From Acidaminococcales bacterium (lineage in GTDB: Bacteria > Bacillota > Negativicutes > Acidaminococcales > JAISLQ01): a DNA stretch of 39,638 nucleotides. How positions within the stretch are numbered: position 1 is the first letter of the stretch; the number at the start of each line of letters is the position of its first letter. A program made the position numbers and the translations under genes. Below, one piece after another: positions 3,242 through 31,568 of this stretch. The stretch spans positions 1 to 39,638 of the forward strand of contig JAISLQ010000006.1 in the NCBI GenBank assembly GCA_031290885.1, read 5' to 3'. Below the pieces are notes generated by a model. It did no database searches, was not told where the DNA came from, and saw nothing but the letters and a program-made list of their open reading frames with translations.

Positions 3242-6200
3242 TTACCAGGCACTATCATAGCACATTCCGGGAATGTTTTCATCTATGCCTTTTACGCGGA
3301 CGCGCTCGCCCAATGTTACCAATTCCCGCCCGCGCTGCGCCGCGCGCTCGTCCAACCGTCCGGGCGGCAGCCGCCAGCCCCAGTTGCCCAAGGCGACGCC
3401 CGGCGTGTTCATCCGGGCGCTGCCGGGAAGCGCCAGCAAGTCCTGCAAGGGCGCAATGACCCAGATATGATCGGATGTATAGACAAATTTCAAAAATTGG
3501 TCGGCCGTTTCTTCCTTCGGAAGCATGGCGGGAATGCCCGCCAGTTCCGCCATGCGGACAAAGGCCGGATCGCTGCGGTTGTTTTCCGCCCAGCCGAGGA
3601 GCGTGTCATTGTCATGGGTCCCGGTATAGAGTATTTTGGTTATGTCGCTTGAAACGCCAAATTGCAGGACGTCCGTGCCGGGCAAGGCAAAGCGGTCGCG
3701 CAGCCGGTGCACGGAGGGGGTTATGTCGCCTAAGTCTTCCACGATAAAAGGCAGGCCGCCGAAGTGTTTTTGCAAAGAGAGCAGAAAATCTTCCCCCGGT
3801 CCGGCGCGCCATTGCCCCGGCGCGGCGGTCGCGCTCCCGCGCGGTACGCGCCAATAGCTGTCCAGCGCCCGGAAATGGTCGAGGCGCAGAAGGTTGCAGG
3901 CTTTCAGGCCATGTTCCAAGCGTTTTTTCCACCAGCCATAACCATCTCCCTTTAAAGCCGCCCAGTTATAAAGCGGATTGCCCCAAAGCTGGCCGGTTTC
4001 GGAAAAATAATCCGGCGGCACGCCGGCAACCGCCGCCGGCGCGCCGTCCTCCTCCAGTTCAAAGAACTGCCGGTTGCTCCACACGTCGGCGCTCTCGCCC
4101 GAAAGGTAGATAGGAATGTCGCCGATGACAATAAGGCCTTTTTGATTGGCTTTTTCCTTTAAGAGCGCCCATTGCCGCCAAAATTCGTATTGCAAAAACA
4201 ACTGGTAGCCTATTTCGCCCGCCAGCCGCTCGCCGAAAGCCGCCAGTTCGTCCGGGTCGCGCCGGAAGAGTTTTTGCGGCCAGCCGTTCCAGTGCGCGCC
4301 GCCGAAATTACCTTGCAAAGCCTTGTACAAAGCGTAATCGTCCGCCCAGAAAGCGTTTTCCCGATGAAAGCGCTCAAACTCCGCCCCCGGCGCAAACTGT
4401 TTGTACGCCCGGCGGAAGATTTTTTCTTTGCGCTCTTTTACCTGCGAAAAATCCACCCGATCGGTTTCTGACGCCCCGGCCTTGGCGGCGGCAATGTCCT
4501 CTTTGGCGATATAGCCTTCCGCCAGCAGCAGCTCGGGAGAAATCAAAAGCGTATTGCCGGCGAAAGCGGAATCGCCGGCATAAGGCGAACCGGCATAGTC
4601 AATGGTGTTCAGCGGCAGCAGCTGCCAAATCTGGTGTCCGGAGGAAACGGCAAAATCAATAAATTCATAAGCGCCCGGGCCGAAATCCCCTATGCCGAAA
4701 TCGGAAGGAAGGCTTGACGGGTGCAGCAGCAGCCCCGCTTTTCGCGTCCGGTCAGGGTAAATCACCCCGCCGCGCAGGACGCGCCCCATCCCACCGTCGA
4801 CCGGCATGGAGACGCGCCCGGCGCGCGGGGAAAACACTTCGCCGCTCAATACGTCCACAAGGGCGCTGTCGCCGTCCATGCTGAAGGTCTTGCGCTGCCG
4901 GCCGCGGTTTAAAACGACGGTCGCTTCTTCCGCCGCCAGCAACCGTTTATAAGAGAGTATGTCAGGTTCCGTTTGCAGCGGCAGCCAGGCGCCGCGCCGC
5001 AATGCCGGGTACCTGCGCCGCAGCCGGGACAGCCGCCAGTAATATTTGTAAACATCCGGGTCTTCTTTCCCCCACGGATAGGTGGCGCGGTTGAAGGGAT
5101 CGCTAAACCCTTCCGCCCCCGCCTCGTCGCCGTAATAAACGGATGGCAGGCCGCAAAAGGTCATCTGCCAGACGACGGCCAGCCACAAAAGGCGCAGAGC
5201 GTCGCAGCGCTCCCGGCCGGAGAGATAAAATCCGCGTTTTTGCGTGTCGGTAAAGTTGTCGCCGGGAACGCCGGAGAGTTCGGTGAAAATGCGCGCGGTG
5301 TCATGCGTGCCCAGAAGGTTCATCAAAAGGCCAAAATTTTCCGCGGGGTAATTTTCGTAAAGGCTGTAAAGGCGCGCCATAACTTCCCGGGAGCTCCGGC
5401 GCGCCAGAAGAAAGTCAAGCACGCAGTCGCGGAAAGGATAGTTCATCACCGAGTCAAGCTGGTTGCCCAAAAAATAACAGCGCAATTCGTTGTAGGCGAC
5501 CTTGCGGGAGGCGTCTTCCCATACTTCGCCCAAGAGGAAACATTCCGGATCCTCAAGTTTTATGCGCCATCTTAACAACTTGATGAACTCCGTAGGCAAT
5601 TCGTCCGCCACGTCAAGGCGCCAGCCGCTTGCCCCGGCTTGCAGCCAGCGGCAGGCAACGCTCCTTTTTGCTTCAACTATGTAATAAAGGTAATCAGGGT
5701 TGAGCTCGTCGACGTTGGGCAGGTTGCCGATGCCCCACCAGCTTTCATATTCATGGGGATAATTCTTAAAACGGTACCAACTGTAAAAAGGGGAATCTTT
5801 TGATTGCCATGCCCCGACGCTTTTGAAGGTGCCTTCCTTGTTGAAGTACCGGCTGTCGCTTCCCGTGTGGCTGAACACGCCGTCCAGGATTACCCTGATC
5901 CCGCGCTCCTTCGCTTCGTGGCACAATCTTTTAAAAGCGTCCAGATCGCCTAAAACCGGATCGACCTTTTCATAGTCGCCCGTATCGAAACGATGGTTGC
6001 TGACCGAAAGAAAAATAGGGTTAAGATAAATGAGCGTTACGCCGAAATCTTCCAAGTAATCAAGTTTGGCGGTTATGCCGTCAAGGTTGCCGCCGAAAAA
6101 ATCATAGGCCATTATTTCGCCGGTTGCGCGGTCGCGCGCGTACAGCGGACGCCTGTGCCAGTCGTCGTGGATAAGCGAATCGGGCTTTTTGGCCAAAGGC

Positions 6201-6643
6201 GCGGGAAAAGGGTTGAAAAAACGATCGGGGAATATCTGGTAAATCATCCCGCCGTAAAGCCAGCCCGGCATTTTTTGGGCGTCATAGACGGTTATTTGGT
6301 AAGAAACCGGATCGCTGTCGTAAATCTTGCCCCGCCCGCCCAATTGTTCGGGGTTGTTGCCGTAATAAAGCGTGCGCCCCGGCAGCTTTACGATGAAATA
6401 ATACCAGGCCAGGCAGGGTTTGTCCGGCAAAGTAATTTCAACTCGCCAAACGCTTTTTTCGGCGGGCGCTTTTTTCCGGGCCATGGGATAAATATACTCG
6501 CCGTCGCGCCAAAGCCTAAGCAGCACTTCCGACGGTTCCTGCCCGACGGTTTCCAGGGCGAGGCGCAAGGCGCCCTTTATAGGGCGCGCGCCGAAAGGAT
6601 CGCGGTAAAGAAGGTTTTGCGAATCGTGCAGAAGTGAAATCAC
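3242..6643 (-). CDS. Fused glycogen debranching GH13 / GH77 4-alpha-glucanotransferase
   Basis: 1133-residue two-enzyme fusion. Residues 1-120 form a beta-rich N-terminal domain like those of cyclomaltodextrinases. Residues about 125-600 are a GH13 alpha-glucosidase/debranching barrel with DGVFSH (254-259), nucleophile D344 in GWRLDVADE, acid E373 in LGEVWED and D448 in GTHDTAR. From about 632 a complete GH77 (MalQ) domain follows: nucleophile D922 in RLDHFRALD, acid E969 in IVEDLGD and D1011 in GTHDNDT. Both active sites look intact, so one polypeptide can trim branches and disproportionate the released maltodextrins. Similar GlgX/MalQ fusions are known from Negativicutes. It starts with GTG at 6643, with TAGGAGA overlapping the glgP stop (11-base gap), so translation is coupled. 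It is the last glycogen gene of the operon. Confidence 0.92.
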   Translation of the reverse strand: MISLLHDSQNLLYRDPFGARPIKGALRLALETVGQEPSEVLLRLWRDGEYIYPMARKKAPAEKSVWRVEITLPDKPCLAWYYFIVKLPGRTLYYGNNPEQLGGRGKIYDSDPVSYQITVYDAQKMPGWLYGGMIYQIFPDRFFNPFPAPLAKKPDSLIHDDWHRRPLYARDRATGEIMAYDFFGGNLDGITAKLDYLEDFGVTLIYLNPIFLSVSNHRFDTGDYEKVDPVLGDLDAFKRLCHEAKERGIRVILDGVFSHTGSDSRYFNKEGTFKSVGAWQSKDSPFYSWYRFKNYPHEYESWWGIGNLPNVDELNPDYLYYIVEAKRSVACRWLQAGASGWRLDVADELPTEFIKLLRWRIKLEDPECFLLGEVWEDASRKVAYNELRCYFLGNQLDSVMNYPFRDCVLDFLLARRSSREVMARLYSLYENYPAENFGLLMNLLGTHDTARIFTELSGVPGDNFTDTQKRGFYLSGRERCDALRLLWLAVVWQMTFCGLPSVYYGDEAGAEGFSDPFNRATYPWGKEDPDVYKYYWRLSRLRRRYPALRRGAWLPLQTEPDILSYKRLLAAEEATVVLNRGRQRKTFSMDGDSALVDVLSGEVFSPRAGRVSMPVDGGMGRVLRGGVIYPDRTRKAGLLLHPSSLPSDFGIGDFGPGAYEFIDFAVSSGHQIWQLLPLNTIDYAGSPYAGDSAFAGNTLLISPELLLAEGYIAKEDIAAAKAGASETDRVDFSQVKERKEKIFRRAYKQFAPGAEFERFHRENAFWADDYALYKALQGNFGGAHWNGWPQKLFRRDPDELAAFGERLAGEIGYQLFLQYEFWRQWALLKEKANQKGLIVIGDIPIYLSGESADVWSNRQFFELEEDGAPAAVAGVPPDYFSETGQLWGNPLYNWAALKGDGYGWWKKRLEHGLKACNLLRLDHFRALDSYWRVPRGSATAAPGQWRAGPGEDFLLSLQKHFGGLPFIVEDLGDITPSVHRLRDRFALPGTDVLQFGVSSDITKILYTGTHDNDTLLGWAENNRSDPAFVRMAELAGIPAMLPKEETADQFLKFVYTSDHIWVIAPLQDLLALPGSARMNTPGVALGNWGWRLPPGRLDERAAQRGRELVTLGERVRVKGIDENIPGMCYDSAW

Positions 6644-6654
6644 CTGATACTCTC

Positions 6655-9102
6655 CTATTTATCGATGCGCGTTATGCTTTGGGCGCGCCATATATCGCGG
6701 GCGTATTCCTGGACGGTGCGGTCGGAGGAGAAAAAGCCGGACTTGGCGATGTTTACCGTTGACATTTCCAGCCATTTCGGGCGGTCCTGATAAAGCTCGC
6801 CGACTTTTATCTGCGCCTGGCGGTAGGACTCAAAATCTTTCATTACGTAAAATTCGTCATTGCCGGCATAAATATAGTTTTTAATCGACATGAGGCTTTG
6901 CTGATCGATCGGCAAGGCCCCGCCGAACAGTTTGTCCATGGTGTCGGCCAGCCGCGGGTCGTCCGCTATGGTGTTATAGGCGGAATAAGTATTGTTTTGG
7001 TTAAGTTCCAACACCTCGTCCGCCCGGAGGCCGAACAGCACGAAATTGTCTTCACCTACTTTCTCCCTTATCTCGACGTTGGCGCCGTCGAGAGTGCCGA
7101 TGGTTACGGCGCCGTTCATCATCATCTTCATGTTGCCAGTGCCGGAGGCTTCTTTGCTGGCGGTGGATATCTGCTCGCTCACTTCCGCCGCCGGCACGAT
7201 TATCTGCGCCAGGCTGACGTTGTAGTTTTCAAGGAATATGACCCGAAGGCGCCTGTCAATGGCCGCGTCATTGTTAATCGTTTCCGCCAGGGTGTTTATC
7301 AGCTTTATGATCGCTTTGGCCAGATAATAACTGGGCGCGGCCTTGCCGGCAAAAATAAAGGTGCGCGGCGGCGCGGGGGGGGCGGCGCCGGCTTTCATCG
7401 CGTTATAGAGCGCGAAAATGTGCAGGGCGTTCAACAGTTGCCTTTTGTAGGCGTGTATGCGTTTTATCTGCACGTCGAAAATTGATTTTGTGTCTACCGG
7501 CACGGCTAATTTGTTCATAATGTATTTAGCCAATATTTCTTTGCGCGCCTGTTTGACTTGCGCGAGTTCTTCCAGGAATTCCTCGTCCTTGGCGTAGCGC
7601 ATCAGGTGAGCCAGATCGTCAGGATGCTTTATCCAGCCGTTGCCGATTCTTCCTGAAATCAGGTCGGTAAGTTCGGGATTGGAGTTGTAAAGCCAACGCC
7701 GGTGGGCAATGCCGTTGGTCTTGTTGTTGAATTTTTGCGGCTCGTATTGATAAAAATTGCGCAAAACATCCTTTTTCAATATTTCGGTATGGATATAAGC
7801 CACGCCGTTCACGCTGTAGCTGCCGAACACGGCCAGGTTGGCCATAAATACTTGCCCGTCATGCACGACCGCCATGGAATTTATTTTGTCCCATTCGCCG
7901 GGATAGGCCGCCTCCAGTTTTATCCTGGCGCGCCGGTCTATTTCCTCTATTATCATGTAAACCCTGGGCATGAGTTCCTTGACTATGTCGACCGGCCATT
8001 TTTCCAGCGCCTCCGGCATAATGGTATGGTTTGTGTATGATACTACCCTGGTAACGATGTCCCAGGCGGCATCCCAGCCCAGGCCTTCCTCGTCCAGCAG
8101 CAGCCGCATCAATTCCGGCACAACCAGCGCCGGGTGGGTATCGTTTATGTGAACGGCTATGTAATTCGGCAGATCTTCCAGCGCCAGCTCGTACTTTTTC
8201 TTGTAGAACCGCAATATGCTTTGGATGCCGGCGGAAACCATGAAATACTGCTGTTTCAAGCGGAAGCGTTTGCCCTGATAGTTGGAATCGTCAGGATACA
8301 GCACCTCGCTCAAAGACTCCACGGCGTATTTGTATTCCACCGCTTTCTTGTATTCCTGCCGGTTGCTCAGCAGTATTTCCTCGGCCGCCGGCATTACCTC
8401 CGCGCTCCAAAGGCGCAGGGTATTGACGATGTTGTTGTCGTAACCGACGATCGGCATGTCATAAGGGACGGCCAGCACCGCCTCATAGTCCGTATGGATG
8501 AATTTGAGGCTGCCGCCTTCCTGCTGCATTTGCACCGCGCCGCCGAAACGCACTTCCATCGCCTTGTCGCGTTTCGGCCATTGCCAGGCGCTGTAGTTTG
8601 ATATCCAGCGGTCGGGGAATTCAATTTGATTGCCGTCGACGATTTTCTGCTGGAACAGGCCGTATTTGTAGCTTATGCCGCAACCGTGCCCGGGGATGGC
8701 GGTTGACGCCAAAGAATCAAGAAGGCAGGAGGCCAAGCGGCCAAGGCCGCCGCTGCCCAAAGCGACGTCTTTTTCCTGCGCTTCCAAATCGTCAAGGCTT
8801 ATGCCCAGTTCGGCCAAGCCCCTTTTTACGGGATCCTTGATCTCCAGGTTGGACAAATAATTGTCCAACAATCGCCCGGGCAGATATTCTATGCAAAAAT
8901 AATATACTTGCTTTACTTTCCTTGCCTGATATTCCGCGTTGGTTTTTACCCAGTTGCTCGCTATTTCCTCGCGCAAAGTTTCTACCAACGCTTCGTACTG
9001 CTGATCAAGGGACCCTTCGCTGATCGGCTTGCCGTGCAATGTCTGAAAACAGGTGGCGTATTTTTCCATAAACCTCGTTTTAAATTTCTCTTCTGTCAGC
9101 AT
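6655..9102 (-). CDS. glgP: Glycogen/maltodextrin phosphorylase
   Basis: 815-residue GT35 phosphorylase that releases glucose-1-phosphate from alpha-1,4-glucan ends. The pyridoxal-phosphate lysine is K659 in GTGNMKMMMNGAVTIGTLDG, and the N-terminal YYFCIEYLPGR and GSGGLGRLASC blocks are conserved. The reading frame opens earlier, but the ATG at 9102 has GGGGAG five bases upstream, inside the last codons of glgA, and lies 2 bases past the glgA stop, so I use that start. Length and ends are normal for bacterial GlgP. Its position directly before the debranching fusion makes sense: phosphorylase stalls near branch points, which the next protein removes. Confidence 0.96.
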   Translation of the reverse strand: MLTEEKFKTRFMEKYATCFQTLHGKPISEGSLDQQYEALVETLREEIASNWVKTNAEYQARKVKQVYYFCIEYLPGRLLDNYLSNLEIKDPVKRGLAELGISLDDLEAQEKDVALGSGGLGRLASCLLDSLASTAIPGHGCGISYKYGLFQQKIVDGNQIEFPDRWISNYSAWQWPKRDKAMEVRFGGAVQMQQEGGSLKFIHTDYEAVLAVPYDMPIVGYDNNIVNTLRLWSAEVMPAAEEILLSNRQEYKKAVEYKYAVESLSEVLYPDDSNYQGKRFRLKQQYFMVSAGIQSILRFYKKKYELALEDLPNYIAVHINDTHPALVVPELMRLLLDEEGLGWDAAWDIVTRVVSYTNHTIMPEALEKWPVDIVKELMPRVYMIIEEIDRRARIKLEAAYPGEWDKINSMAVVHDGQVFMANLAVFGSYSVNGVAYIHTEILKKDVLRNFYQYEPQKFNNKTNGIAHRRWLYNSNPELTDLISGRIGNGWIKHPDDLAHLMRYAKDEEFLEELAQVKQARKEILAKYIMNKLAVPVDTKSIFDVQIKRIHAYKRQLLNALHIFALYNAMKAGAAPPAPPRTFIFAGKAAPSYYLAKAIIKLINTLAETINNDAAIDRRLRVIFLENYNVSLAQIIVPAAEVSEQISTASKEASGTGNMKMMMNGAVTIGTLDGANVEIREKVGEDNFVLFGLRADEVLELNQNNTYSAYNTIADDPRLADTMDKLFGGALPIDQQSLMSIKNYIYAGNDEFYVMKDFESYRQAQIKVGELYQDRPKWLEMSTVNIAKSGFFSSDRTVQEYARDIWRAQSITRIDK

Positions 9103-9104
9103 TT

Positions 9105-10550
<1,446 letters not shown>

Positions 10551-10552
10551 AA

Positions 10553-11662
10553 TCACACCACCGTTCCTTTTTTTATTACAAGCGGATACAACGGGTCGCC
10601 TTTGAGCGAATGACCCGGCGTTATCTCAACGTCCTTGTCGCAGATCACGTTTTCCAGGCGCGCGCCGCTTCCTATATAGGAATACTGCATGATTACGGAG
10701 TTTTTGACCACGGCCCCTTTCGCCACATGGACCGAACGAAAAAGCACGCTGTTTTTTACGAAACCGTTGATCTGGCAACTGTTGGCCAGGACAGAGTTTT
10801 CCACCTTGGCCTCGGACAGGTATTTGGTCGGCACGGAATCTTTCACTTTGGTGTAGATATGGCCGTTGCGAAAGAAAATGTCCTGCCAGACGGCCTGGTT
10901 CAAAAGCGCCATGTGATGCCGGTAATATTCCCTGACGTCGCAAATGTTGGCCGCATAGCCGGTGAATTCCCAAGCATTCAGCCGCAGGTTCTTGAGGTTG
11001 GCCTGCAGCTGCCGGACATAATCGCCGCCGCCGCGGCTCATGGCGTTGGTTATGATGTCCAGGAGCAGCCGGCGGCCAGTGATCGCCATGCTCATGTACA
11101 GATTGCGGCTTTTGCTTTGCGGCGGCGCTATCTCCATGTCGGCGATAAAATTGTCGGCGTCCAGCGTGAGCATGACCGCCCCGGACGGCCTTGTTTCATT
11201 ATTGCCCAGGCGCCGGTAGATGAGCGTCGCGTCGGCTTTGGATTGTTTGTGATATTCAAGCGCCAGGCCGTAGTTCAGGTTGCATAAAAACTGGCTGGCG
11301 GACAAAATGACGTATTCTTGTTTGGCGTCGAGCAAAAAATCCAAGTGCTGCGAATAATAGTCCACGTCGCCCGTGCCGGCCAGCGGCGTGCGCGGCGTGG
11401 GAATGAGCAGGAACAGGCCTTCGTGCTTGCGGTCAAGGTCCCAGTCCTTGCCGGCCCTTAAATGCTGCAGGAGCGCCCCGGAATGTTCCGGAATGAGTAT
11501 GCCGACGTTGTGCACGCCGGAGTTGACCATATTTGAAAGCGCAAAATCCACCAGCCGGTATTTGCCGCCAAAAGGGACTGCCGCCAAAGGGCGCGTTTGC
11601 GTCAGGACGTCCAGTTTTACCGTATTTTCGTGCAAGTTTATCAATCCCATGACATTGAACAT
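10553..11662 (-). CDS. glgD: GlgD, GlgC-like subunit of ADP-glucose pyrophosphorylase
   Basis: 369-residue homologue of GlgC. It keeps the [16 protein letters not shown] block and a C-terminal left-handed beta-helix (hexapeptide repeats such as VVKNSVIMQYSYIGSGARLENVI). It lacks the GGxGxRL nucleotide loop: the corresponding segment reads INLHENTVKLDVLTQTRP. This is the signature of GlgD, which in Firmicutes pairs with GlgC to raise or tune activity and is nearly inactive alone. The ATG at 11662 is preceded by GGGGAGG at good spacing, and the gene begins 39 bases after glgC. The function is assigned from the family plus its position between glgC and glgA. Confidence 0.93.
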   Translation of the reverse strand: MFNVMGLINLHENTVKLDVLTQTRPLAAVPFGGKYRLVDFALSNMVNSGVHNVGILIPEHSGALLQHLRAGKDWDLDRKHEGLFLLIPTPRTPLAGTGDVDYYSQHLDFLLDAKQEYVILSASQFLCNLNYGLALEYHKQSKADATLIYRRLGNNETRPSGAVMLTLDADNFIADMEIAPPQSKSRNLYMSMAITGRRLLLDIITNAMSRGGGDYVRQLQANLKNLRLNAWEFTGYAANICDVREYYRHHMALLNQAVWQDIFFRNGHIYTKVKDSVPTKYLSEAKVENSVLANSCQINGFVKNSVLFRSVHVAKGAVVKNSVIMQYSYIGSGARLENVICDKDVEITPGHSLKGDPLYPLVIKKGTVV

Positions 11663-11701
11663 CCAAACGCCTCCCCGCTCAGATAAACCGCCAAATGGCC
11701 C

Positions 11702-12844
11702 TTATCCATCGTCCAGTTTTTCGCCGCCGGAAAAACGCAGCGCTATGTCGCCCGGGCCGGACGGAAGTATTTTCTGTTTTTGCATGACGAAAACCTTGCC
11801 TCCGACAATCGCCCTTTCGACCACCGCGCCCATGGAGACGCGGGACTCGGCCATTATTACGGAATCTTTCACCGCGGCTCCTTCCTCCACGATGACGGAA
11901 GGGAAGAGAATGCTGTTTTCCACATGGCCGTAGATCAAGCAGCCTTCGCTTACAAGCGACTTCAGCACGCGTCCTTCTTTGCCGATGTAGTGAGGGGGAA
12001 GGGCGAGGTTTTCCGAACTGATGATCCAGTCGGGAGAATAAAGGTCAAAGGCGTAGTCGTCGCCCAACAGATCCATGCTGGCCTGCCAGTAACTTTCAAC
12101 TGTGCCCACGTCGCGCCAATAGCCCTCAAAAGGATAGGCAAAGAGTTTTTCTTTTTTAAAGAGCATGCGGGGTATTATATCTTTGCCGAAATCGTGCGAG
12201 CTTTTCGCGTTCTGGCTGTCTTCTATGAGATAGCGGCGCAGGACCTGCCAATGAAAAATATATACGCCCATAGAGGCGAGGGTGCTTTGCGGATTTTTGG
12301 GCTTTTCCTCGAAAGCGGCAATCCGCCCGTCCTTGTCCGCGCACATTATGCCGAAACGGCTGGCTTCCTTGATGTCGACGTTTATGACGGCAATGGTGGC
12401 ATCCGCTTTTTTCTCGACATGGAAAGAGAGCATTTTGGAGTAGTCCATCTTATAAACATGATCGCCGGAAAGCACGGCCACATGATCGGGCTTCATGCTG
12501 TCGACAAACTTGATGTTTTGATAAAGCGCGTCCGCCGTGCCTTTGTACCAGTCGGCGCCGCCTTCGCGGGCGTAGGGCGGCAGGATGTAGATCCCGCCGT
12601 GCTTGCGGTCAAGGTCCCAGGGACTGCCTATGCCGATGTATCGGTGAAGTTCCAGCGGCTGATATTGGGTAAGCACCCCTACCGCGTAAATGCCGGAATT
12701 GTAACAGTTGCTGAGGGCAAAATCAATTATGCGGTATTTGCCGCCAAACGGCACGGCGGGCTTGGCTATGTTTCTGGTCAAGCCGCCAAGCCGGCTGCCT
12801 TGCCCGCCCGCGAGCAGCATCGCGATACATGAAAGCTTGCGCAT
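11702..12844 (-). CDS. glgC: Glucose-1-phosphate adenylyltransferase (ADP-glucose pyrophosphorylase)
   Basis: 380-residue catalytic GlgC, which makes ADP-glucose from ATP and glucose-1-phosphate, the committed step of glycogen synthesis. It has the intact nucleotide loop [34 protein letters not shown], the metal/catalytic [19 protein letters not shown] for glucose-1-phosphate binding, and a C-terminal beta-helix. It begins 6 bases after glgB; its ribosome binding site GGGTGGTGA overlaps the glgB stop codon. It works with the neighbouring GlgD. Confidence 0.97.
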
Positions 12845-12850
12845 TGATTG

Positions 12851-14737
12851 TCACCACCCTTTTGCGTCACCTGCTACAATGTATAAAGAAGATAAAGGCG
12901 GCACCCTGACGACCAAGGAATATTCCTGCCCGTGCCAGGGCGTCGGATTGGCGATGAGGACGCGCCTGGTCCATTTGCCGCTGCCGCCGAAATTTGCATC
13001 GTCGCTGTTTAAAGCCTCGTGATAAGGGCCCATTTGCGGCACGCCCACCCGATAGCCCTCATGGGCTATCTCCGTGAAGTTGCAGATCACCGCCAAATGC
13101 CGGCCGTTTTCGTCAAAACGCAGGAAACTGATTATGCTGTGGTCTTTGTCGTCGGGCTCCAGCCAGGCAAAACCGCGCCAATCGGAGTCTATTTGCCAGA
13201 GGCAGCTTTCCCGGCGATAAAAATCGTTGAGCGTTTTGACATAATTTTTGAGCTTGCCATGCATTTCATAATCAAGCAAAAACCAATCCAACTGCTTTTT
13301 TTCGTCCCACTCAATAAACTGGCCAAATTCCTGTCCCATAAAAAGCAGCTTCTTGCCGGGATGGGCCATCATATAGCCGAGCAAGAGGCGCACATTGGCA
13401 AATTTCTGCCAATAATCGCCCGGCATTTTGCCGATCAGGGATTTCTTGCCGTGCACCACTTCGTCGTGGGAAAAAGGCAGGACAAAATTCTCCGAAAAGG
13501 CGTACATAAAGGAAAACGTGATGTAATTATGGACGCCGCGCCGGTGCGCCGTCTTTTGGGCTATGTATTCCAGCACGTCGTTCATCCAGCCCATGTTCCA
13601 TTTATAATTAAACCCCAGGCCGCCGTCGTGCACCGGCCAAGTTACCATCGGGTAGGAAGTGGACTCTTCGGCCATCAGCAATGTTTGGGGGTTGCGCTTG
13701 AACACCAGGCGGCTCAAATCACGAAAGAACGCGATGCCGGCCGTATTTTCGCGCCCGCCGCATTCGTTGGGCAGCCACTTGCCCGAGGGCTTGTTATAAT
13801 CAAGGTAAAGCATGCTGGCCACCGCGTCTACGCGCAAGCCGTCAAGATGAAAAACTTCTATCCAGTAACAAGCGTTGGAAATAAGAAAACTGCGCACCTC
13901 GGGTTTGTAAAGGTCAAAATAAGACGTCCCCCAGCCTTCATTGTCCCGGCGCAGAGGATGGGCCGGCTCATAGCAGCAGCTGCCGTCAAATTGCCGCAGG
14001 CCGTGATCGTCCTTGCAAAAATGGCCGGGAACCCAATCCATGATGACGCCTATGCCCAATTCGTGGCAGACGTCCACAAAATGCTTCAAATCCCGCGCGC
14101 AGCCGTAACGGCTGGTCGGCGCATAATACCCCGTTACCTGATAGCCCCAGGAATTGTCGAGGGGATGTTCGGACAAAGGCAAAACTTCTATATGCGTATA
14201 GCCCATGTCCCGGACATAAGCCGGCAGCATCCCTGCCAACTCGCGGTAAGAAAAAAACTCGCCGTTTTCTTTCTGCCGCCAAGAACCCAAATGCGCCTCA
14301 TAGATATTGACGGGCCGCCCGTATGAATTGGTTGAGCGGCTTTCCATCCACTCCCGGTCGGTCCAGAAAAATTCGTCCGGCGCGGCGACCACGGAAGCCG
14401 TATTAGGCCTAAGCTCCGCGGCGAAAGCCAAAGGGTCGGCTTTTAACCGCGTTTTTCCGTCCGCGCCCACAATTTTATATTTATAACGCATTCCCGCGTC
14501 GGCGCCGGGCACAAAAACCTGCCAGATGCCGCCGCCGATGTTTCGCATGGCAAAATCCAAACCGCGCCAATCATCAAAATCGCCGACGGCCCATGCCGCT
14601 TTGGCGGCCGGGGCCCATACCGAAAAAACCACTCCGTCCCGGCCTTCCAAACTGGTTTTGTGCGCGCCCAGGAACTTGAATATTTCGCAATGCCTGCCTT
14701 CGGCAAACAAATAACGATCCATTTCGCCAATAACCAT
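12851..14737 (-). CDS. glgB: 1,4-alpha-glucan branching enzyme
   Basis: 628-residue GH13 branching enzyme that cuts alpha-1,4 chains and rejoins them through alpha-1,6 bonds. A CBM48 domain occupies about residues 20-115, followed by the barrel with IMDWVPGHF (232-240), nucleophile D304 in GLRVDAVASMLY, acid E357 in LMAEEST and D425 in PFSHDEVVHGK. Length is normal. The ATG at 14737 has only a weak AAGCGTGA ribosome binding site. It is the first gene of the glycogen operon. Upstream (14738-14866) are a TTGACA (complement of 14818-14823) and an AT-rich ATAATAAT segment, but their spacing of about 22 bases is too long for a standard promoter, so I list no promoter. Confidence 0.97.
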   Translation of the reverse strand: MVIGEMDRYLFAEGRHCEIFKFLGAHKTSLEGRDGVVFSVWAPAAKAAWAVGDFDDWRGLDFAMRNIGGGIWQVFVPGADAGMRYKYKIVGADGKTRLKADPLAFAAELRPNTASVVAAPDEFFWTDREWMESRSTNSYGRPVNIYEAHLGSWRQKENGEFFSYRELAGMLPAYVRDMGYTHIEVLPLSEHPLDNSWGYQVTGYYAPTSRYGCARDLKHFVDVCHELGIGVIMDWVPGHFCKDDHGLRQFDGSCCYEPAHPLRRDNEGWGTSYFDLYKPEVRSFLISNACYWIEVFHLDGLRVDAVASMLYLDYNKPSGKWLPNECGGRENTAGIAFFRDLSRLVFKRNPQTLLMAEESTSYPMVTWPVHDGGLGFNYKWNMGWMNDVLEYIAQKTAHRRGVHNYITFSFMYAFSENFVLPFSHDEVVHGKKSLIGKMPGDYWQKFANVRLLLGYMMAHPGKKLLFMGQEFGQFIEWDEKKQLDWFLLDYEMHGKLKNYVKTLNDFYRRESCLWQIDSDWRGFAWLEPDDKDHSIISFLRFDENGRHLAVICNFTEIAHEGYRVGVPQMGPYHEALNSDDANFGGSGKWTRRVLIANPTPWHGQEYSLVVRVPPLSSLYIVAGDAKGW

Positions 14738-25864: not shown

Positions 25865-27136
25865 TCATTTGGCGCCAGGGAAAGCCTGCTTGATAGGCAG
25901 CGTAAGGGCGAACAAAGCGGAAGCCACGTAAGACCAGAGGGCAAAGGAGAAGGACGCGTCATAAGAACCCGTCACATCGAGGAAATATCCGCCCAAAAAA
26001 CTTCCCGTCGCCGGGCCGATGCCCATAACGACCAATGTGCCCAGGCCCCATATTTTGCCGAAATTTTTGCCGCCGTAAATAGTTCCCACGTATCCGGCGA
26101 TGCCGCCCGGCTCAATTGCCCAGTAGATAGCAAAGAATACGCAGGCTATAATGCCGTAGGCCATTGACACGCCGCTCAAGCGCAGGATCAAAACACCGAT
26201 TATGCCGCATATGGGAGCGATAATGACCATAAGTTTCCTTGCTTTGCCTTCGGAACCGAGCTTTCCGACCAGGCTATCGGCGACCACGCCGGTGCCGGGC
26301 ATTGTAACGAGGCCGCACACGCCGATGGCGATGTACAGAGTCCCCGCTGTCGCGGTGGAAAATCCGTGCGTGGTAATCCAATAGTTGACCAATTGCGTCC
26401 AGATCAAAAATTCAGCCATCATGCTGCCCAGGAAGGCAATGACGGCGCCCCAGATGGGCCAAGTTTTAAAAGCGGTCTTAACGTCCCAGGGGGGAGGGGC
26501 CGCCGCGCCGGCGACCGGCGCAACCAGGCCGTAAGGCTCATAGCCGTAGTGATCGGGGTTCTTTCGCGCAAAAAAAGCCGCCATGGCCAACAATACAAAT
26601 ACGATGGCGGCCAAGATTCTCATGGCTTCGCGCCAGTCCATGGTAAGCAGCAGCTGATTGAGCACCAGGCTAAGCAGAAGCTGCGCCATGGGCGCGCCCA
26701 TGAAGGCCATGCCCCAGCTTTTGCCATAGTAACGGCCAATGAACCATTTGCGCACGGAAGCGGTGGACGATACCCACAGCATGCCTGTCCCTATTCCGGC
26801 AAACAACGAATAGGTGAGCAGATAGGTAGCGTAGCTGTCGGCAAAGCTGCACAGAAAAAATCCGAGCGCGGCAAAAACGGAACCAATGGCAAAAGCTTGC
26901 CTGGTGCCCCATTTGTCCACAATCATTCCGCTGAAGTATGCGGTAACGCCGTAAATAACCATCATCAAAGAATAGCCCATGGAAGTCTGTCCAACAGTCC
27001 AGCCCATGCCGCTTGCCAACGGGCGCAGGAGCAAAGAGAAGGAAGACCGATATCCGAACAGGCAGAACACTGCCAACCAAGCGGCAAATACGACCATGTT
27101 GCCACTTGATTTTTTGTGCGCTTCACTGTTAATCAT
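25865..27136 (-). CDS. MFS transporter of the oxalate/formate antiporter (OFA) type
   Basis: 423-residue, 12-helix major facilitator. The loop between helices 2 and 3 reads GMIVDKWGTRQAF, the usual MFS A-motif position. The overall pattern (GYRSSFSLLLRPLASGMGW, SSTASVRKWFIGRYYGKSWG, YGGKNFGKIWGLGTLVVMGIGP) is that of OFA-family organic-acid carriers. The ATG at 27136 is chosen because GGAGGGA lies 8 bases upstream. It follows the GRE gene in the same direction after a 376-base gap and ends at a terminator, so it probably moves the substrate or product of the GRE, most likely a carboxylate. A truncated relative lies at 31398-31568. Confidence 0.85.
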   Translation of the reverse strand: MINSEAHKKSSGNMVVFAAWLAVFCLFGYRSSFSLLLRPLASGMGWTVGQTSMGYSLMMVIYGVTAYFSGMIVDKWGTRQAFAIGSVFAALGFFLCSFADSYATYLLTYSLFAGIGTGMLWVSSTASVRKWFIGRYYGKSWGMAFMGAPMAQLLLSLVLNQLLLTMDWREAMRILAAIVFVLLAMAAFFARKNPDHYGYEPYGLVAPVAGAAAPPPWDVKTAFKTWPIWGAVIAFLGSMMAEFLIWTQLVNYWITTHGFSTATAGTLYIAIGVCGLVTMPGTGVVADSLVGKLGSEGKARKLMVIIAPICGIIGVLILRLSGVSMAYGIIACVFFAIYWAIEPGGIAGYVGTIYGGKNFGKIWGLGTLVVMGIGPATGSFLGGYFLDVTGSYDASFSFALWSYVASALFALTLPIKQAFPGAK

Positions 27137-27142
27137 TAGCAA

Positions 27143-27512: not shown

Positions 27513-29951
27513 TTAAATGGCCCATTCGTTTTCGGAACGGTCGATCAGCTCGTTCTGGATCGTTTCGCTAAGATCGGTCCAGTAAGCGCTGTAACCGGCA
27601 ACGCGCACGATGAGATCCTTATGTTTCTCCGGCTCCTTCTTGGCGGCGCGCAATTGCTCGGTGCTGATGACGTTGAATTGGATGTGCTTGCCCGAGCCTT
27701 CCCCAAAGTAGGTCCGAATCAGAGCCGCCAAGTTGTCGCGGCCTTTCTTGTTGGCAAGGGAGGACGGCGTGAAGCGCATGTTGAACAGCGCGCCGTAAAG
27801 GTCGGTTTGGTCTACGCGGTTGGCCGAATTGATGACGGCGGTCGGGCCGTTGACGTCGGTCCCCTGCGTCGGGGAAACGGCGCCGTCGGCCATGGAGACC
27901 CAAGCCTTGCGGCCGCAGGGCATGGCGCCCAACTTGGCCCCGGTCCCGCCATGAAACCCTATGGAGTGCGGCGAAACTTCGTAATGGCTGCCGTAGGTAG
28001 TGGGCTTGGAATGCCAGATTTCCCTCAAGGTCGAGTATACTTCATCCGCCAGCGCATCAACTTCTTCTATGTCATTGCCGAACTTCGGAAGGGCCAAAAT
28101 CTTGGCGTGCAGTTCTTCATAGCCCACCCAGTCCGCCGCCATGGCATCAAGCAGAGTTTGTTTGCTGCAGATCGGATTGTCGACGAAGATATGGTATTTG
28201 AGGACATACAGGGCATTGGCGACATCCTGGACGCCGACAGGCACAATGTACATGCTGTTGTCTTCATGTTCCGCGCCGCCTACGCTGGCTACCTTGCCCT
28301 TCTTGATGCAGGAGTGGACAAAAGCCGACATCATGATGTCCGGGAAGGACTCGGTATGCTGAATCTTGCAGCGGCGGCCGCTGGTGGTTCCGACATCCGC
28401 CCAATAGTCCAGCTGTTTGCAATAGGCTTGGAAGAATTCTTCGTAAGTCTGCATCTTGGTGAATTCGCCGGTGGCCGGGCCTAGTTGCTCGTTATATTTG
28501 CGATCCCAGCCGTTTAAGAGAGCCATTTCCAGCATCTTGGCCTTGTTCATGACCAAAGGCCAAATGGGGCCGGTCTTTCCGGGCACCGTGTGCAGCGTGC
28601 AGCCGCCGAAGGCGTAGCTGCGCGCTTCTTCCAAGGTGTAGCCGCGCGCGAGCAAGTAATTGGTGGTCGACAAGTCGTTGAAGAAAGCGGGAAAGCCCAT
28701 GCCCATGGCAACGACTTCCAGGCAGCGATCCATGAATTTTTTGTTGATGCGGGGATGCCAGCGCACGGAAAGCGTAGGATGCGTGGTTTTGACGCGCACG
28801 GCGGCCTCCAGCCAGAGGAAGGACAGCTCGTTTACGGCGTCCCTGCCGGTCTTGGGGTCTACCCCTGCGAGCACCGTATTGTGAAAGTGCGACTCGGAAC
28901 TTAGGTTCGGGGTCATGACATCCGGCCAGAACTGGCGCTTGCCCATGGTCTTGACGCGGAAGCACTCCAGCAGCTGAAGGGCGTACTCCTGGTCAATGTA
29001 GCCTCTCTCGATGTCTTTCTTGAACGTCGGATACAGGAATTGGTCGACGCGGCCAAAACCCATGCCATAGGTGCGGGTATCGTAAAATATCATCAGCACG
29101 CCGAACTGGAAGGACTGCAGAGCTTCCTGGAAGGTTTCCGCCGGATATTCCGGAACGCGCCGGCAAACGCGGGCGATTTCTTCAAGTTCAGCCTTGCGGG
29201 TCGGGTCTTTCTCAACAGCGGCCTTTTCAGATGCTAAGTCGGCGTAACGGTGCGCGTAGTCTATGCCGCCTTGCAGCATGCATTTCAAGCCTTTCCAGAA
29301 CTGCTCCTTATAAAAGTCCCCAAGGGAGGTAATTTGCAGTTTTTCCAGCTGCTCGTCGATTTCGGCGATCAGGCCGCGGGCGCCCTTGTTCATGAGGGTG
29401 AAACCAATGTCCGGACAATTCCAAGCTTTTTCCGCGAACATTTCCGAAACGGTATTGATGACCCAAGCGCCGGCCTCGCCGATTTTATGTTCGTATTCGG
29501 CTTCTTCGGGGCCTTGATACTTCTGCCACATTTCCTTGCCGCCGGTGTTGCGGAAATATTCGCAGATATCCAGGGCCTGCTGTGCGTGCGCCTCGTTGTC
29601 GAAACCGAAGAATTTGCCTTTGTTGCCTTCCCAACCGTACTTTTGAATGTACTCTTCCATCCACAAAGCCGCCAGATCCGGGAACCACTCAGGGCCCATC
29701 GGCCGCGCGCTGTAGTCGCCGACCAAAAGCTGGTCGTCATCGATGTAAATCGGGATCTCCCGCAGAATTTTCTGTACGGTCAGGCCGCGCTTGTGAAAGA
29801 AAGAATAGCCGTCAAATTCTTTATAGCCGTCTACCAACAGCTGGGCGCGCGCCATGGACATATTCTGTGTGTAGCGCAAGGGGTTCAGCCGGTCCCAGAT
29901 AACATTTCCCCTGCTCTTTCCTTCGTACTTGTTGTACTTTACTTTCGCCAT
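27513..29951 (-). CDS. Glycyl radical enzyme of unassigned specificity
   Basis: 812 residues with both GRE hallmarks. The C-terminal glycyl loop is RVAGYSAYW with radical G786. The thiyl-radical cysteine is C451 in FGGCTLHTVPG. Upstream blocks (LSVRWHPRIN, GFPAFFND) and downstream SPTQGTDVNGPTA fit the large PFL-like family including arylacetate decarboxylases and fumarate-adding enzymes. In the well-known dehydratases, choline and isethionate lyases and hydroxyphenylacetate decarboxylase the cysteine is followed by Cys-X-Glu; here it is Cys-Thr-Leu with His at +3. The expected base is missing, so none of those activities should be assumed. Start ATG at 29951 has AGGAG at 9 bases; an ATG at 29960 abuts it and is rejected. 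Its activase is directly upstream. Confidence 0.93.
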   Translation of the reverse strand: MAKVKYNKYEGKSRGNVIWDRLNPLRYTQNMSMARAQLLVDGYKEFDGYSFFHKRGLTVQKILREIPIYIDDDQLLVGDYSARPMGPEWFPDLAALWMEEYIQKYGWEGNKGKFFGFDNEAHAQQALDICEYFRNTGGKEMWQKYQGPEEAEYEHKIGEAGAWVINTVSEMFAEKAWNCPDIGFTLMNKGARGLIAEIDEQLEKLQITSLGDFYKEQFWKGLKCMLQGGIDYAHRYADLASEKAAVEKDPTRKAELEEIARVCRRVPEYPAETFQEALQSFQFGVLMIFYDTRTYGMGFGRVDQFLYPTFKKDIERGYIDQEYALQLLECFRVKTMGKRQFWPDVMTPNLSSESHFHNTVLAGVDPKTGRDAVNELSFLWLEAAVRVKTTHPTLSVRWHPRINKKFMDRCLEVVAMGMGFPAFFNDLSTTNYLLARGYTLEEARSYAFGGCTLHTVPGKTGPIWPLVMNKAKMLEMALLNGWDRKYNEQLGPATGEFTKMQTYEEFFQAYCKQLDYWADVGTTSGRRCKIQHTESFPDIMMSAFVHSCIKKGKVASVGGAEHEDNSMYIVPVGVQDVANALYVLKYHIFVDNPICSKQTLLDAMAADWVGYEELHAKILALPKFGNDIEEVDALADEVYSTLREIWHSKPTTYGSHYEVSPHSIGFHGGTGAKLGAMPCGRKAWVSMADGAVSPTQGTDVNGPTAVINSANRVDQTDLYGALFNMRFTPSSLANKKGRDNLAALIRTYFGEGSGKHIQFNVISTEQLRAAKKEPEKHKDLIVRVAGYSAYWTDLSETIQNELIDRSENEWAI

Positions 29952-30070
29952 TAATACCATCTCCTTATTTCTTTGCTCTTGAAGCTTCGGGGCGACCATC
30001 TTTACTTTCTGTAATCATTGATTCCCCCTCTCTTAAAATAGTATTTAAAGCGCGATCTCATAGGAGCAAC

Positions 30071-30982
30071 TTAGCTCGCCCTGATAATTTCCTCAAGCTT
30101 TGCCAGATATTCATCTGACTGGCGCTTGTACGCTGGATGTTCTCCTTTGAAATCCATGCGCCCATACTTTTCCTCGCCCAGGTTGTTATAAGGAAGAAGC
30201 TCTATATGATCAGCAGGGCAAAGGCCCAGTTCGTTTCGCACGAAACTGGCAATGGCGCTGACGCTTTCATAGCTATCGTTGTAACCGGGAATAAGCGGCG
30301 TCCTGAACAATATTTCTTTCTTCTCCGCGACCAGGCGCCTGGCGTTTTCCAAAACATGCTCATTGGGCGCGCCAACGCCTTCTTTGTGCTTTTCGCTGTC
30401 CATGTGCTTGAGGTCATAGAGAATATAGTCGCAATGGTCGGCAATCTTCTTAATGGTCGGCCAAGGATAAGCCCCCGCCATTTCAACGCAAGTATGCACG
30501 CCTTCCTCCTGCGCGCGTTTTAAAAGCGCGGCCGCAAAATCCGCCTGCAGTTCGATGGCCCCGCCCGAAATCGTCATGCCGCCGCCGGAATTTAAATAAA
30601 TCGCATAATCTTTAAGGACCGTTTCCATAACCTCGCCGACCGTCATCAGCTTGCCCTGCACGTTGCGAAGGCCGGACAGGCAGGCCGAAGTGCAAACCCC
30701 GCAGGCCTTGCAGCGCGAACGGTTGACAAGCATTCTCCCATCGATGATATTGCTGGCCCTTTGCGGGCAGGATTGAACGCAGCGGCCGCACAAAACGCAT
30801 TGCTGCTTCCTGACCATAAGGACAGGCATCATGTCCTGGGACTCGGGGTTCTGGCACCAAAAGCAACGCAGGTGGCATCCCTTCAAAAAGACCGTCGTGC
30901 GAATCCCGGGCCCGTCATGCGTGGAAAAACGTTGGATATTGAATACATAGCCGCTTAGCCCCTTGACAATCTCCATACTCAT
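30071..30982 (-). CDS. Glycyl radical enzyme activating enzyme (radical SAM)
   Basis: 303 residues. The radical-SAM motif CxxxCxxC is C36/C40/C43 in GCHLRCFWC. It is followed by two inserted ferredoxin-type clusters (C62/C65/C68/C72 and C91/C94/C97/C101), the form found in activases of non-PFL glycyl radical enzymes. GGGMTISGG binds SAM and DLKHMD follows. It should abstract hydrogen from G786 of the neighbouring GRE under anaerobic conditions. It precedes the GRE gene by about 119 bases in the same direction. AGGGGTG lies before three close ATGs (30985, 30982, 30976); I use the middle one. Confidence 0.94.
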   Translation of the reverse strand: MSMEIVKGLSGYVFNIQRFSTHDGPGIRTTVFLKGCHLRCFWCQNPESQDMMPVLMVRKQQCVLCGRCVQSCPQRASNIIDGRMLVNRSRCKACGVCTSACLSGLRNVQGKLMTVGEVMETVLKDYAIYLNSGGGMTISGGAIELQADFAAALLKRAQEEGVHTCVEMAGAYPWPTIKKIADHCDYILYDLKHMDSEKHKEGVGAPNEHVLENARRLVAEKKEILFRTPLIPGYNDSYESVSAIASFVRNELGLCPADHIELLPYNNLGEEKYGRMDFKGEHPAYKRQSDEYLAKLEEIIRAS

Positions 30983-30991
30983 CATCAACAC

Positions 30992-31397
30992 CCCTAACTA
31001 TTTGTCGCTTTTCTTTTTAGAAAGCCCCCCGTTATATCAAGCCGCGCGCCTTCCGGCGTCCAAAAGCTTCGCGCATAACGGCGGTATATGTCTTTATCCG
31101 GCACAATCCCTTATTTTCTTATGATACCAACAAATCGGCAGCCGATATATCCGTCAAGCGTTTATTGCCGGTCGTATTTGCGGCCGCCAAGGTTGTATGC
31201 CAATACAACCTTGGCGGCCTGTCCAGTTTAAGGGAAGCTACATTGTGGTTACAACGAAACGGCAGAAAGCAAACGCCATCATCGGCAAGCCCCGACTGCC
31301 TTGCCCTTGGCCGGGCGATGCCGCCGCAGCGGGTTGCCGCTCGCCCTCAGTTTCCGCGGCCGCAGTCAAGCAAAGGCCACCGAGTCAATATATGCGC
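30992..31397. other. Gene-free leader and spacer upstream of the GRE activase
   Basis: Holds no gene I can support. Structures visible: CCGTTAT/ATAACGG arms (31029-31035 and 31075-31081) that could fold the activase 5' leader, a 13-base symmetrical ATCGGC-A-GCCGAT at 31134-31146 that could be an operator, and a large perfect inverted repeat at 31182-31219. The part from 31220 to 31397 looks like decayed coding DNA behind the MFS remnant. Confidence 0.4.
31182..31219. repeat. Perfect 17-bp inverted repeat with 4-base loop
   Basis: Arms 31182-31198 and 31203-31219 are exact reverse complements, loop GCCA. There is no T run on either side, so it is not a standard Rho-independent terminator. It lies between the MFS remnant and the GRE activase leader. 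It could be an ancient terminator that lost its T tract, a transcript-stabilising hairpin, or a protein-binding site. Confidence 0.7.
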
Positions 31398-31568
31398 TCA
31401 GACGAAACAAAACGCCGGGACATGAGGCCCGACGTTGACCTTAACCCAAGCGCCCATGAACGTCCCGGCGAAAGGACCGGTTCCCATGACAACGAGCGTG
31501 CGCAGCCCCCAAATATTCCCGAAAGAATGCCCTCCGAAAAATGGCGCCGCATGGTCCGCGCCGCCGCG
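31398..31568 (-). pseudogene. Remnant of an OFA-type MFS transporter gene
   Basis: On the minus strand, starting a base or two after the ECF gene's stop, a 56-codon stretch reads as the region before the last transmembrane helices of an OFA transporter: PFFGGHSFGNIWGL, RTLVVMGTGPFAGTFMGA. Hand alignment to the intact MFS protein encoded at 25865-27136 gives 20 identities in 39 positions, including GG, FG, IWGL, TLVVMG and GP. No start codon, upstream three quarters or full C-terminus exists, and it ends at a TGA at 31398-31400. It is a different paralogue, not a recent copy. Confidence 0.75.

Follow-up and report, generated by a model that had tools for sequence, protein, structure and literature searches.

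Glycyl radical arylacetate decarboxylases

A Cys-X-Glu motif is characteristic of the glycyl radical enzymes (GREs) glycerol and diol dehydratase, CutC and IslA. A GRE known as arylacetate decarboxylase (AAD), from Olsenella (Tractidigestivibacter) scatoligenes (OsAAD), was reportedly described by Lu et al. in ACS Catal. in 2021, with the structure 7E7L. The PDB deposit of 7E7L is named "Hydroxyphenylacetic acid decarboxylase". AAD decarboxylates p-hydroxyphenylacetate, yet it does so without the small subunit and the active-site residues of 4-hydroxyphenylacetate decarboxylase (HPAD; PMC9248008; PMC13285125). In the C. scatologenes HPAD the cysteine and the two glutamates are C503, E505 and E637 (PMC9248008). 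Among the other GRE arylacetate decarboxylases, phenylacetate decarboxylase (PAD, PhdB) carries glutamine instead of glutamate two residues after the cysteine (position C+2; PMC9248008), whereas indoleacetate decarboxylase (IAD) retains Glu502 and His514. Abstraction of an α-hydrogen atom by the thiyl radical has been proposed for IAD and PAD, and oxidation of the carboxylate for HPAD. The natural substrate and mechanism of AAD are less settled than those of HPAD, and the native substrate in particular is less secure because the ligand in the 7E7L complex lies far from the cysteine (PMC9248008). MFS carriers encoded beside the IAD and HPAD genes of O. scatoligenes have been proposed as arylacetate importers (PMC6181972).

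Identification of an AAD-like glycyl radical enzyme

The window, which is the whole 39,638-nucleotide stretch of DNA analyzed here, harbors a complete GRE reading frame on the minus strand that is open throughout (27513..29999). Translation probably begins with the ATG at 29951, which is preceded by AAGGAG and is also where the homologs begin, giving a protein of 812 residues (27513..29951) as compared to 828 for the long reading frame. Pfam matches to the PFL-like (E 5e-163) and Gly_radical (E 5e-30) families place the protein among the GREs, and both catalytic residues are intact, with the thiyl cysteine C451 housed in GGCTLHTVPGK and the glycyl residue G786 in RVAGYSAYW (C467 and G802 in the 828-residue numbering). 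The first-pass annotation of this DNA had reported an intact glycyl loop with G786 and a C451 followed by Thr-Leu-His; both are borne out, and its coordinates and residue numbers are all correct, C451 and G786 being exact when counted from the ATG at 29951.

We assign this GRE, with a probability of roughly 0.88, to the known AAD family as a further member, whose reaction is predicted from that of the characterized relative OsAAD. A phmmer search of the PDB matched 7E7L with 1249 bits over residues 21-823, the next best solved GRE scoring 425 bits. The two proteins are identical at 530 of 806 aligned positions (66%), above the 50% identity at which PMC6181972 separates GRE clusters in its similarity network. 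A structure was predicted from 25 aligned GREs (pLDDT 89, pTM 0.90), and in Foldseek the known AAD 7E7L ranked first (E 4e-82, TM 0.90/0.97), no other GRE family scoring better than E 1e-59. Glycerol and diol dehydratases, CutC and IslA share the GRE fold and glycyl loop but show 32% identity or less in the Foldseek alignments. A maximum-likelihood tree placed nine AADs on one side of a branch with a support of 100, apart from the HPADs and other GREs, and a gap in identity separates the AADs (61-94%) from all other GREs (37% or less). Fumarate-adding GREs were rejected as an identity, since none scored above about 300 bits, well short of the score of 7E7L.

Conservation of a glutamate-free active site

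All nine AADs share the motif GGC[TV]LH, in which the residue at C+1 is threonine in the window GRE, L003, L023 and L039, and valine in OsAAD, L022, L025, L026 and L027. The residue at C+2, corresponding to the first HPAD glutamate, is leucine in the window GRE, as in all AADs, and the column of the second HPAD glutamate is occupied by valine in each of the eight AADs that cover the site. Four HPADs identified by NF033715 above its cut-off served as controls; all four have glutamate at C+2 and a second glutamate exactly 134 residues after the cysteine, a spacing that agrees with C503, E505 and E637 of the C. scatologenes enzyme. The window GRE has neither HPAD glutamate, shows about 26% identity to HPAD and lacks its longer N-terminus. 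Because the literature already reports AAD as devoid of the HPAD active-site residues, this absence is a described property of the family. The first-pass annotation had considered the active-site motif non-standard, a view that does not hold given its invariance across the characterized AAD family; moreover, several other GREs in the alignment also have no glutamate at C+2, and neither does PAD according to its published description.

Six histidines (H355, H357, H391, H454, H562 and H662 in the 812-residue numbering) are invariant in the AADs and near-absent elsewhere. We infer that these residues, and above all H454 beside the thiyl cysteine, are candidates for acid-base or carboxylate contacts.

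Activase, carrier and surrounding locus

The GRE gene lies in a conserved operon composed only of an activase, the GRE and an MFS carrier, and the operon contains no gene for a small Fe-S subunit such as that of HPAD. The radical-SAM activase (30071..30991, minus strand) is located just upstream of the GRE, about 70 nt away from the long reading frame and about 120 nt from its probable start codon. It harbors the CX3CX2C motif as CHLRCFWC together with two auxiliary 4-Cys ferredoxin motifs, and it scored 329 bits against TIGR02494 (cut-off 174), in keeping with the dedicated activase with two extra FeS clusters that had been proposed earlier. The OsAAD-linked activase is 56% identical to it, and the activases linked to the remaining AADs from outside its genus are 57-61% identical.

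The MFS carrier gene (25865..27142, minus strand) begins 370 nt downstream of the GRE and has its own AAGGAGG site. Models for lactate and for oxalate/formate carriers come closest to it, although neither match reaches the cut-off. The earlier reading of a carboxylate-type carrier also stands. Of the AAD-linked carriers, the one from the OsAAD locus is 50% identical to this protein, and those of L025 and L026 are 45-50% identical; by analogy with the carriers encoded beside the O. scatoligenes IAD and HPAD genes, it may import an arylacetate. Upstream of the activase, 54 codons remain of the C-terminal part of another MFS gene of this kind, now decayed (31404..31565, minus strand); a tblastn comparison of the L025 MFS with the whole window aligned them at 59% identity (E 4e-14). 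This remnant indicates that the locus probably once carried carriers on both sides, as L026 does now.

A cognate activase and an MFS carrier adjoin the GRE in O. scatoligenes as well, and the two GREs correspond end to end, with Cys-X-Leu-His and without the HPAD glutamates. However, the window GRE has threonine at C+1 instead of valine, its carrier lies downstream whereas that of OsAAD lies upstream, and no Crp/Fnr-like regulator was seen beside the window operon, although one is present beside four other AADs. A search of the window's own genome with a 60-residue query from the OsAAD-linked Crp/Fnr gene, run with no positive control, gave no match. A perfect 17-bp inverted repeat with a 4-nt loop (GGCCGCCAAGGTTGTAT GCCA ATACAACCTTGGCGGCC), a candidate operator or hairpin, lies at 31182-31219, some 190 nt upstream of the activase. 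The genome contains a single copy of its core, even when three mismatches are allowed; its flanks are conserved at two places in a same-genus relative (L045, about 8395 and 6063), but the symmetry of the repeat is incomplete there. Elsewhere in the window, a glycogen gene cluster on the minus strand (3242-14737) encodes a GlgX/MalQ fusion, a phosphorylase, GlgA, GlgD, GlgC and GlgB.

Distribution of AADs

A genome scan identified seven loci. One of them (L024, T. scatoligenes SK9K4) is OsAAD, and five more are AADs from Desulfovibrionaceae (two), Clostridia, Peptococcaceae and Coriobacteriia. Two additional AADs were found in a same-genus genome (L003, 93-94% identity) and in the order of the genome that carries L022 (L039). 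AADs are rare among the sampled genomes. Of 399 genomes from the window's phylum, only its own has one; the count is 2 among 400 genomes from the class that includes O. scatoligenes, 2 among 297 from the order to which L022's genome belongs and 1 among 349 from the phylum to which L025's genome belongs. A search of viral contigs confirmed no relative, and a search of plasmids returned only HypD-like GREs (about 32%). The window GRE thus adds another bacterial genus to those with this rarely met enzyme for p-cresol-type products, and additional AAD sequences help to work out how decarboxylation proceeds without the HPAD glutamates.

One Desulfovibrionaceae MAG (G459) harbors two AADs, L022 and L026, which are 81% alike. 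Each is accompanied by an activase and a Crp/Fnr-like gene, with two MFS carriers at L026, and a split of substrates between the pair is possible. The same MAG also contains further GREs, of which L038 is HPAD/IAD-like with 1064 bits against the HPAD cut-off of 1150.

Proposed reaction and alternative interpretations

By analogy with OsAAD, the most likely reaction of the window GRE is the conversion of p-hydroxyphenylacetate to p-cresol. In the proposed sequence, the MFS carrier would import the arylacetate and the activase would cleave SAM, placing a radical on G786 that would pass to C451. The C451 thiyl radical would then trigger loss of CO2 from the arylacetate side chain, and the product radical would regain a hydrogen atom from C451 to yield the methyl-arene and CO2. 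Initiation may proceed by abstraction of a hydrogen atom from the α-carbon or by oxidation of the carboxylate. The reading of the first-pass annotation that the enzyme, accompanied by a carboxylate-type carrier, probably acts on an organic acid by a chemistry independent of the Cys-X-Glu glutamate is upheld.

A minority possibility is that this genus has the same AAD fold and decarboxylation but naturally uses another arylacetate or a related acid, for instance phenylacetate, which would yield toluene, or a dihydroxyphenylacetate. An identity of 66% leaves scope for a change of specificity, 34% of residues differing from OsAAD, and stretches likely to line the pocket include the differences F305Y, Y306W, F315M and T468V (828-residue numbering). 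The co-occurrence of L022 and L026 in one MAG, with two carriers at one locus, is likewise as expected if substrates differ. No IorA-like (arylpyruvate oxidoreductase) gene scored above cut-off in the host genome, which also leaves room for another acid; in this 95%-complete assembly, uptake of the arylacetate is therefore likelier than its synthesis from an amino acid. However, around the cysteine, the glycine and the family histidines the two enzymes align with almost no differences. It is doubtful, but conceivable, that AADs of this sub-branch decarboxylate a natural substrate other than p-hydroxyphenylacetate through a histidine-based, glutamate-free active site, for example to form toluene or another methyl-arene.

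The first-pass annotation had favored an undescribed activity, and a GRE with a chemistry other than decarboxylation might seem to be indicated by the window GRE falling below every NCBIfam equivalog cut-off. However, OsAAD reaches no cut-off either and shows the same below-cut-off pattern. NCBIfam includes models for HPAD, IAD, HypD, CutC and others, none of which picks out AAD, and it is this missing model that explains its silence on the window GRE and on OsAAD alike; AAD genes appear unassigned by profile annotation for the same reason. Considering the 66% identity to a characterized enzyme in the same fully supported clade and the common operon with matching activase and carrier, a non-decarboxylase activity is very improbable. 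CTLH and CVLH both fall inside one characterized cluster, which is in substance the outcome that the annotation had itself named as speaking against its proposal. Finally, an HPAD or IAD proper would belong to the same overall reaction class, but this membership was rejected as scarcely credible on the basis of the model scores (318 bits against 1150 for NF033715, HPAD; 405 bits against 1100 for NF033718, IAD), the absence of both HPAD glutamates and a clade separate from the HPADs.

A second glycyl radical enzyme in the same genome

The host genome contains only two PFL-like genes. The second GRE (G000:C61:1-2277; L002, L048) lies outside the window, and its 5' end is cut by the contig border. 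Its thiyl motif is GCVVPH, with valine at C+2, and its own activase is encoded directly downstream; the nearest solved relative is CutC. At a strict threshold the incomplete protein gave no NCBIfam match. GREs with this motif also occur in four further genomes from the order (L004, L006, L009 and L013); L009, the one of these four tested against the equivalog cut-offs, reached none. Searching the literature for GCVVPH found nothing. This second GRE is a better candidate for an undescribed activity than the window GRE.
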